This document shows, piece by piece, positions 20,806 through 21,818 of a DNA stretch of 35,196 nucleotides. Position 1 is the stretch's first letter; each line of letters starts with the position of its first letter. The position numbers and the translations under genes were made by a program. The stretch spans positions 1 to 35,196 of the forward strand of contig JASEHI010000023.1 of NCBI GenBank assembly GCA_030018695.1, read 5' to 3'. The DNA comes from Anaerolineales bacterium. Its GTDB lineage: Bacteria > Chloroflexota > Anaerolineae > Anaerolineales > Villigracilaceae. The notes beneath the pieces were generated by a model. The model ran no database searches. It worked only from the letters and a program-made list of their open reading frames with translations, and had not been told where the DNA came from.

Positions 20806-20846
20806 ATTTACGATTTACGATTTACGATTTACGATTGATGATTGAA
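20806..20846. repeat. ATTTACG heptamer array before the MazG-like gene
   Basis: Four perfect ATTTACG units are followed by ATTGATG and ATTGAAA. The array runs to 1 nt before the ATG and takes the place of a ribosome binding site. Confidence 0.9.
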
Positions 20847-20847
20847 A

Positions 20848-21138
20848 ATGAACATCCGTGACTTAACGACCAAAATGCACGAGTTTGTGCGCTCCAAAGG
20901 CTGGTACGAGCCGAAAAGCCCTCGCCCGCAAACGCCGCGCAACCTGGCGATCTCGCTTTCGCTCGAAGCCACCGAAGTGCTGGAACACTTCCAGTGGCGC
21001 GATGAAATCATTGAGAAAGACGAACTCGCCAGCGAACTGGCTGACGCAGCCCTCTATCTTCTGCAACTGGCTTCCATCTCTGGCATTGACCTGGAGCAGG
21101 CGATTTTGAAGAAACTCGAAACCAATGCATCCCGCTAG
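20848..21138 (+). CDS. MazG-like nucleotide pyrophosphohydrolase
   Basis: This 96-residue protein starts MNIRDLTTKMHEFVRSKGWY. The all-alpha NTP-pyrophosphatase signature is present: LAISLSLEATEVLEHFQW (ExxE of helix 2) and ELASELADAALYLLQLA (the ExxD pair that binds Mg2+). The length fits the single-domain dCTPase/RS21-C6-like group that removes non-canonical or surplus nucleotides. A TTG two codons upstream is an alternative start. It is enclosed by repeat arrays on both sides, and no Shine-Dalgarno sequence is visible. Confidence 0.88.
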   Translation: MNIRDLTTKMHEFVRSKGWYEPKSPRPQTPRNLAISLSLEATEVLEHFQWRDEIIEKDELASELADAALYLLQLASISGIDLEQAILKKLETNASR

Positions 21139-21145
21139 TGGAACG

Positions 21146-21241
21146 ATAGACCGTAGACCATTGACCGTACCACACACCACACACCATTCACCATTCTCTA
21201 TTCTCTATTCTCTATTTTCTATTCTCTACACTCTGATCTCT
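21146..21241. repeat. Long evolving heptamer array before the LOG-family gene
   Basis: The unit changes gradually along the array: GATAGACC, GTAGACC, ATTGACC, GTACC, ACACACC, ACACACC, ATTCACC, ATTCTCT (three times), ATTTTCT, ATTCTCT, ACACTCT, GATCTCT. It fills the whole gap between the MazG-like and LOG-family genes and ends exactly at the next ATG. Confidence 0.9.
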
Positions 21242-21781
21242 ATGAACATCACAGTTTTTGGCGGCTCCCAACCCCAACCCGGCTCCCCCGCTTATGCAGA
21301 GGCTTACGAACTCGGCAAACTGCTGGCTGAGGCCGGTCACACCGTATTGACCGGCGGCTATATCGGCACGATGGAAGCCGTCAGCCGCGGGGCAAGCGAA
21401 GCCGGTGGACACGTCATCGGCGTGACCTGCGAAGAGATCGAGCGCTGGCGTCCGGTGAGGGCCAACGGCTGGGTGAAAGAGGAATGGCGGCGGGAAACGC
21501 TGATGGAACGGCTGCAGGTCCTCATCGAGGCCTGTGACGCGGCTATCGCCCTACCCGGCGGTCCCGGCACGCTGACCGAGATCGCCCTGACGTGGAACCT
21601 GATGATCGTCCACTCTATGCCGCCCAAACCACTGATTTTGGTCGGGGCAGGCTGGAGGTCCGTTTTCGACCGCTTTTTCGACAAGTTCCACAGCTACATG
21701 CCAATCAACCAGCGCGAACTCGTCTCTTTCGCCCCGGATGTCCAATCTGCCGTTCAAACGTTAGAACGTTGGCACGTTTGA
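21242..21781 (+). CDS. LOG-family Rossmann-fold protein (TIGR00725/TIGR00730-like)
   Basis: The protein has 179 residues from ATG 21242. It begins MNITVFGGSQPQPGSPAYAEA and carries VLTGGYIGTMEAVSRGA and the family hallmark LPGGPGTLTEIALTWN (PGGxGTxxE). Relatives are nucleotide-monophosphate phosphoribohydrolases that release cytokinin-like bases, or uncharacterised YpsA/DprA-like proteins. An in-frame ATG at 21125 lies at the end of the previous gene and would translate repeat DNA. The last residues (VQTLERWHV) and the stop are encoded in the following octamer array. Confidence 0.85.
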   Translation: MNITVFGGSQPQPGSPAYAEAYELGKLLAEAGHTVLTGGYIGTMEAVSRGASEAGGHVIGVTCEEIERWRPVRANGWVKEEWRRETLMERLQVLIEACDAAIALPGGPGTLTEIALTWNLMIVHSMPPKPLILVGAGWRSVFDRFFDKFHSYMPINQRELVSFAPDVQSAVQTLERWHV

Positions 21782-21818
21782 ACGTGTAAACGTGTAAACG
21801 TGTAAACTTGCAAACGAG
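21751..21818. repeat. CGTGTAAA octamer array between the LOG-family gene and proS
   Basis: Units read CGTTCAAA, CGTTAGAA, CGTTGGCA, CGTTTGAA, CGTGTAAA, CGTGTAAA, CGTGTAAA, CTTGCAAA, CGAGGA. The first four encode the C-terminus of the LOG-family protein; the last supplies a GAGGA ribosome site for the following gene. Confidence 0.9.

Follow-up and report, generated by a model that had tools for sequence, protein, structure and literature searches.

Degenerate 7- and 8-bp tandem arrays in an Anaerolineales genome, best read as a dense form of bacterial heptanucleotide simple-sequence repeats

The genome of an uncultured Anaerolineales bacterium carries hundreds of short tandem arrays with units of 7 or 8 bp, most of them degenerate and most of them between genes, and our best reading is that these arrays are an unusually dense and degenerate form of the heptanucleotide simple-sequence repeats already known from bacteria. 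The window, meaning the whole stretch of 35,196 nucleotides that was analysed, is contig C108 of a 2.86-Mb draft assembly in 192 contigs. An earlier note, made from the letters alone, had described three arrays around a MazG-like gene and a LOG-family gene in this window, and all three were found where it had placed them:

20806-20847, plus strand: array 1, ATTTACG heptamers with a degenerate 3' end, running from a terminator-like hairpin to the ATG of the MazG-like gene
20848-21138, plus strand: MazG-like gene (PF12643, E 8e-8)
21147-21243, plus strand: array 2, heptamers passing from TAGACCG through ACCACAC and ATTCACC to ATTCTCT
21242-21781, plus strand: LOG-family gene (Lysine_decarbox / SLOG cluster 4, LDcluster4; PF03641, PF18306)
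21756-21816, plus strand: array 3, octamers AACGTNNN, reaching the ribosome site of the next gene
21825-23300, plus strand: prolyl-tRNA synthetase gene of the ProRS-C_1 type, 3' of array 3 (PF09180, PF00587, PF03129)

The structure described for each of them was recovered as well. Array 1 begins just 3' of the terminator-like hairpin (GGCTCC..GGAGCC TTTT) and consists of 4.4 ATTTACG units at 100% match over 20806-20836, followed by GATTGATGATTGAAA up to the MazG-like ATG at 20848; a 76-base query containing it gave 23 matches in its own genome, nearly all of them through the repeat part. Array 2 occupies 97 bp in the 103-bp gap from the MazG-like stop (21138) to the LOG-family ATG (21242), and its unit does change step by step along that gap. 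Array 3 contains the codons for the C-terminal residues of the LOG-family protein and its TGA, while the unit-like stretch AACGAGGA that comes after it provides the GAGG ribosome site before the ProRS ATG at 21825. Two prolyl-tRNA synthetase-like genes of differing architecture lie within 6 kb of each other here (21825-23300 and 25238-27031), one with a ProRS-C_1 domain and the other with a tRNA-editing domain.

When arrays were called with Tandem Repeats Finder (score of at least 40) in a first sample of 842 kb and a held-out sample of 400 kb, which together make up 1.24 Mb or 43% of the genome on contigs that are not a random choice, the excess over shuffled sequence was large: 293 arrays of period 7 or 8 were found, compared to about one expected per shuffle. 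In the 842 kb, 177 intergenic arrays of any period faced 11.4 per shuffled set; 90 of these had a period of 7 and 49 a period of 8, whereas five shuffled sets yielded a total of two for either period, and a further 48 and 16, respectively, lay inside called genes. In the held-out sample, arrays of these two periods numbered 57 between genes and 33 in coding DNA, with none in five shuffles, and extrapolation to the whole genome leads to roughly 700. Hardly any exact tandem pairs had a period of 10 or 11. Most of the arrays are degenerate, since neighbouring heptamers are identical in only 31% of cases, and perfect ones exist too (AAGTAGAC x12, GATTTAC x8).

The density was about 1.0 array per kb of intergenic DNA and 0.09 per kb of called coding DNA, a difference of about 11-fold that rests on a home-made hexamer gene finder, which is approximate and gives the expected starts in the region of arrays 1 to 3. 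A link to gene borders, which the earlier note had proposed, was found within the gaps themselves, where arrays are concentrated near stop codons and, to a smaller degree, near starts. With the large excess over shuffles and this link, neither of the two results that the note had named as refuting its idea was obtained. Compared to random placement in the same gap, 50% instead of 38% of arrays in the first sample and 45% instead of 30% in the held-out sample lay within 15 nt of a stop codon, a crowding that is real but modest; the corresponding values for starts were 37% and 32% (p 0.04), then 36% and 26% (p 0.01). Of the process that had been suggested, one that amplifies short repeats at gene junctions, the amplification is supported but the targeting of junctions is not, since a third of the arrays (97 of 293) lie within called genes, including those for alanyl-tRNA synthetase and tRNA nucleotidyltransferase, although part of these coding arrays may sit in false gene calls. 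The 11-fold enrichment at borders can result from selection against arrays in genes, and since intergenic enrichment is also expected from such selection, it is no proof of targeting. By lengthening reading frames and by providing stop codons and ribosome sites, the arrays shape the ends and starts of genes and can mislead annotation.

The units of the three arrays had been called unrelated. They do differ from one another, but each family recurs at other loci, so that the genome has a shared vocabulary of units. ATTTACG, CGTAAAA, CTTCATC, ACTGATC and CTCTATT and the octamers AACGTNNN, CCAACNTN and TAGTCNNA all recur at many loci, with ATTCTCT/CTCTATT being the last unit type of array 2 and AACGTNNN the unit of array 3. 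The vocabulary extends to relatives: four tandem ACTGANN units were found in this genome, in 8 of the 11 other genomes of the family that were sampled and in a few other Chloroflexota, and four AACGTNNN units in this genome and in 6 of the 11, whereas 139 sampled genomes from outside the family had none (8, 6 and 139 are hand tallies from result tables); a control with a scrambled core had no match in the family. Each unit family has its own invariant columns, and these are the same here and in relatives, for example ACT(G) with the other three positions variable, or the AAC.T columns of the octamer family. Mismatches between neighbouring heptamers are clustered: among pairs with two mismatches, 81% kept a core of at least 4, compared to 65% at random (held-out p = 0.02), whereas for octamers the held-out clustering was weak (p = 0.08 and 0.28).

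Further arrays in the window proved informative on how arrays arise and persist:

8342-8370, minus strand: heptamer array AACTCNT at the start of a YceG-like gene
11809-11870, minus strand: array of 7+8 = 15-bp units inside the alanyl-tRNA synthetase gene (10497-13331)
16821-16880, minus strand: octamer array inside the tRNA nucleotidyltransferase gene (15828-18482)
18475-18526, minus strand: octamer array GACTANNN, immediately 5' of the start of the tRNA nucleotidyltransferase gene
27019-27051, plus strand: heptamer array ACTGANN between the second ProRS-like gene and a DNA-alkylation-repair-like gene

The array in the alanyl-tRNA synthetase gene inserts about 15 residues in frame; of the homologs aligned, only the same-genus species G002 has this insertion, and has it in part. 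At the DNA level its 15-bp seed, CAAGTACACACGTAG, itself two degenerate 7/8-mers, has one copy in G003 (another species of the genus), three in G002 and four here. This array is thus a local expansion of a seed.

In the comparison that the earlier note had proposed between strains, here made between species, copy number and units differ between species and genera at orthologous junctions. The ACTGANN junction at 27019 has about 4 copies here and about 4 in G009 (same family, sampled at about 14%), 10 in G002, 6 in G003 and 5 in G020; the AACTCNT array is longer in G002, and the GACTANNN array has counterparts of different copy number in G002 and G003. At the junction between the LOG-family and ProRS genes, G020, G011 and G007 have octamers AACNTNNN, G009 and G002 have ACTCTCT heptamers and some species have nothing, and the G009 spot orthologous to array 1 holds TGGACGG/TAGACCG heptamers instead. 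Among 36 junctions that could be compared with G009, the array was of the same family at 14, a different array stood at 10 and none at 12, with a chance level of 4.5% for the same family in non-orthologous segments. Array families at junctions are thus inherited across genera, yet they turn over. Array 2 has kept its unit order in G009 with fewer copies, and 64 of 70 aligned columns are identical (91%), compared to 83-87% in the coding DNA that flanks the array and 71% if only the third positions of LOG codons are counted; such conservation is more than expected for pure junk, although the alignment may flatter the array. In other species (L041, L044, L012, L011) the gap upstream of the LOG-family gene shows a second degenerate repeat style, CACGAAGG/CCTTCGTG/CACAAAGG. 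Elsewhere, the octamer TAGTCNNA (L145:5525-5622) is matched at the orthologous G009 locus L265 by a repeat of about 9 bp, AAGTCTCAC, and the core seems to have been kept while the spacer changed in length.

Many arrays are accompanied by an inverted copy of their own unit, a feature that the earlier note had not described. Defining a partner as two or more tandem units of the array's own family, inverted and no more than 100 bp away, we found one for 58 of 228 arrays, a quarter of them, where the flanks of other arrays gave an expectation of 6; since a pair may contribute both of its arrays to this count, there are fewer pairs than arrays with a partner. The excess was seen in the first sample (38 of 154 compared to 3.2 expected, with 11 direct partners compared to 3.4) and again in the held-out one (20 of 74 compared to 2.8; binomial p 3e-12). 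Examples are:

L137:2948-3083, array with inverted partner
L154:12389-12486, array with inverted partner
L148:10166-10305, array with inverted partner

Perfect inverted arms of at least 15 bp were not enriched at arrays relative to randomly chosen places, so that long perfect arms were rejected as a hallmark of arrays and most inverted partners are imperfect. Within the octamer array of the tRNA nucleotidyltransferase gene, positions 16833-16872 form a perfect inverted repeat with arms of 19 bp around a 2-nt centre; its G003 counterpart is imperfect and of the same length, a single case in which the change is not polarised. The inverted partners suggest fold-back template switching.

In our view, microhomology slippage together with fold-back switching probably produced the arrays as degenerate simple-sequence repeats of 7-8 bp, and selection then filtered them. 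Copying errors of replication (or repair) would generate them, starting from a short natural near-repeat as seed. The nascent strand would slip by one unit while held by about 4-5 matching bases, so that an array would grow in 7-8-bp steps while its other positions drift, and units with a matching core would keep being recopied, leaving a fixed core with 2-4 variable positions. A fold-back template switch on a nearby array would add an inverted copy or repair towards one. Selection would then clear arrays from promoters, and from genes unless the frame is kept, leaving the intergenic remainder, and junction arrays would be inherited for long while turning over. The excess, the period, one seed expansion, inheritance with turnover, the inverted partners and the shared vocabulary were observed; the polymerase-level steps and the selective filter are what we infer. 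Loss of mismatch repair as a simple cause was rejected, MutL (PF01119) being present here and in 40 of the 41 genomes searched.

Two observations do not follow from slippage: random local seeds do not predict shared units at unrelated loci and in other genera, nor that a unit family keeps the same columns invariant in all genomes. As an alternative, existing array blocks may spread to further loci, by ectopic template switching or by gene conversion at the short cores that they share, which would make the vocabulary loosely mobile; the same units are indeed found at dozens of loci and across genera. In addition, mixed ordered strings of three units are common to loci more often than when unit order is shuffled within arrays, as seen for AACGTTTG (14 compared to 4.9, p 0.003), CCAACCTT (9 compared to 3.0, 0 of 300 shuffles) and CGTAAAA (31 compared to 17, p 0.013), with weak signals for CTTCATC and ACTGATC; these p values come from several families and are uncorrected. 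However, no clear excess of strings was seen for CTCTATT, AACCTGCA, GATTTAC or the three-unit TAGTCTGA, for the alanyl-tRNA synthetase array the source was a seed at the locus itself, and no element ends or target duplications were seen, although not in a systematic search. Such dispersal is a rather unlikely alternative, and it may act together with slippage. The claim that the arrays are not a transposed sequence family is borne out as far as an ordinary family is concerned, given the local expansion in the alanyl-tRNA synthetase gene and the fact that only short units are common to loci; no shared full-length element with defined ends (MITE, REP) was seen, as far as an unsystematic look at the ends shows, and array lengths differ between loci.

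Alternatively, the core-plus-spacer units may be binding sites, spacers or hairpins for the expression of flanking genes, kept by selection. The invariant columns here and in relatives, the crowding of stop and start codons, the persistence of an array family at orthologous junctions and the Beggiatoaceae TAACTGA repeats, which lie just upstream of starts and were proposed to be regulatory (PMC4679880), would all fit. We nevertheless find this unlikely: in the best-sampled families unit orientation is symmetric with respect to the mRNA (6:6, 8:8, 4:5), which points to a process at the DNA level and, with small numbers in some families, disfavours an RNA-level signal read from one strand. Moreover, 22 of the 36 orthologous G009 junctions have another array or none, and general selection for RNA hairpins was rejected as array gaps are no more structured than others (z < -3 in 7.5% compared to 14% of other gaps). 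A preference for co-directional gaps in the first sample (1.6, 0.61 and 0.21 arrays per kb of co-directional, divergent and convergent gaps) was not replicated in the held-out one (1.14, 1.06 and 0.5). Quite improbable, in our view, is a dedicated heritable process, enzyme-driven or selected, that would assemble arrays of a fixed core and a variable part of 2-4 nt, drawing on a core vocabulary common to the family, and would copy these arrays in both orientations around genes. Chance or an assembly artefact, for which the draft state in 192 contigs could be cited, has a negligible probability and is refuted by shuffle counts near zero and by related arrays at the same junctions in independently assembled genomes of other species.

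The preferred reading, slippage with fold-back switching, places the arrays beside heptanucleotide long simple sequence repeats (LSSR), an over-represented class in prokaryotes for which slippage was proposed (Mrazek et al. 2007, as cited in PMC4679880 and PMC4692102). As far as those two papers describe the class, our arrays resemble it in being tandem units of 5-11 nt beyond chance, with 7 nt commonest (90 of 177 intergenic), mostly outside genes and with slippage as the proposed cause; they differ in being much more degenerate, in having both periods 7 and 8, many families, core and variable columns and inverted partners. TAACTGA direct repeats are known from Beggiatoaceae, Cyanobacteria and Bacteroidetes (MacGregor 2015, PMC4679880). 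The ACTGANN family, in which two letters beside the core vary, includes TAACTGA units and is likewise tandem and intergenic, in some cases up to a start codon; in contrast to that single fixed heptamer, mostly forward and 5' of starts, the present system has many variants and families in both orientations (PMC4679880). Here, CACTGAT stands 3:2 with respect to mRNA (small numbers), and arrays crowd stops more than starts. The (GATAGRA)n satellites of Chloroflexus aurantiacus are dispersed heptamers in the same phylum, described as one unit family, while the units here are different and many (PMC6749651). Xanthomonas GGGAATC and Nostoc GGGGA(C/T)T repeats are also heptameric, intergenic and conserved in position among relatives with varying length and sequence, but they are G-rich, quadruplex-forming and of one family per genome (PMC4692102). 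In quasipalindrome template-switch mutation, fold-back copying likewise perfects or creates inverted repeats (PMC7202029, PMC8794818), whereas here it would act beside tandem arrays and is deduced from sequence.

Heptamer repeats have been noted for decades in scattered bacteria, with slippage offered as the cause and little direct history, and we found no report of such arrays in Anaerolineae in the open-licence literature searched. This lineage has hundreds of arrays in a single genome and many in related genera, together with a seed-to-array transition in an essential gene, inheritance and replacement at junctions and inverted partners. It is a natural archive of the birth, alteration and loss of such repeats, and the reasons for the 7-nt length and for these particular units, as well as the way they spread, become testable by comparing close strains.

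No known RNA family was found in the window, which also contains a dispersed repeat of about 125 bp (14281-14408) with terminal-inverted-repeat-like ends (GGGTGCGTTTCA...TGAAACACACCC) that folds as a long hairpin (z -5.7), has at least 10 copies in its own genome and about 10 in G010, and looks like a MITE. A perfect 10-bp tandem repeat, CATCTCCGTT x2.8, lies at 14471-14498, its period being uncommon in this genome. Finally, the 159 bp at 18857-19015 are identical to G000:C33:588-746 (G000 being the genome under study), reflecting either a recent duplication or an assembly overlap.
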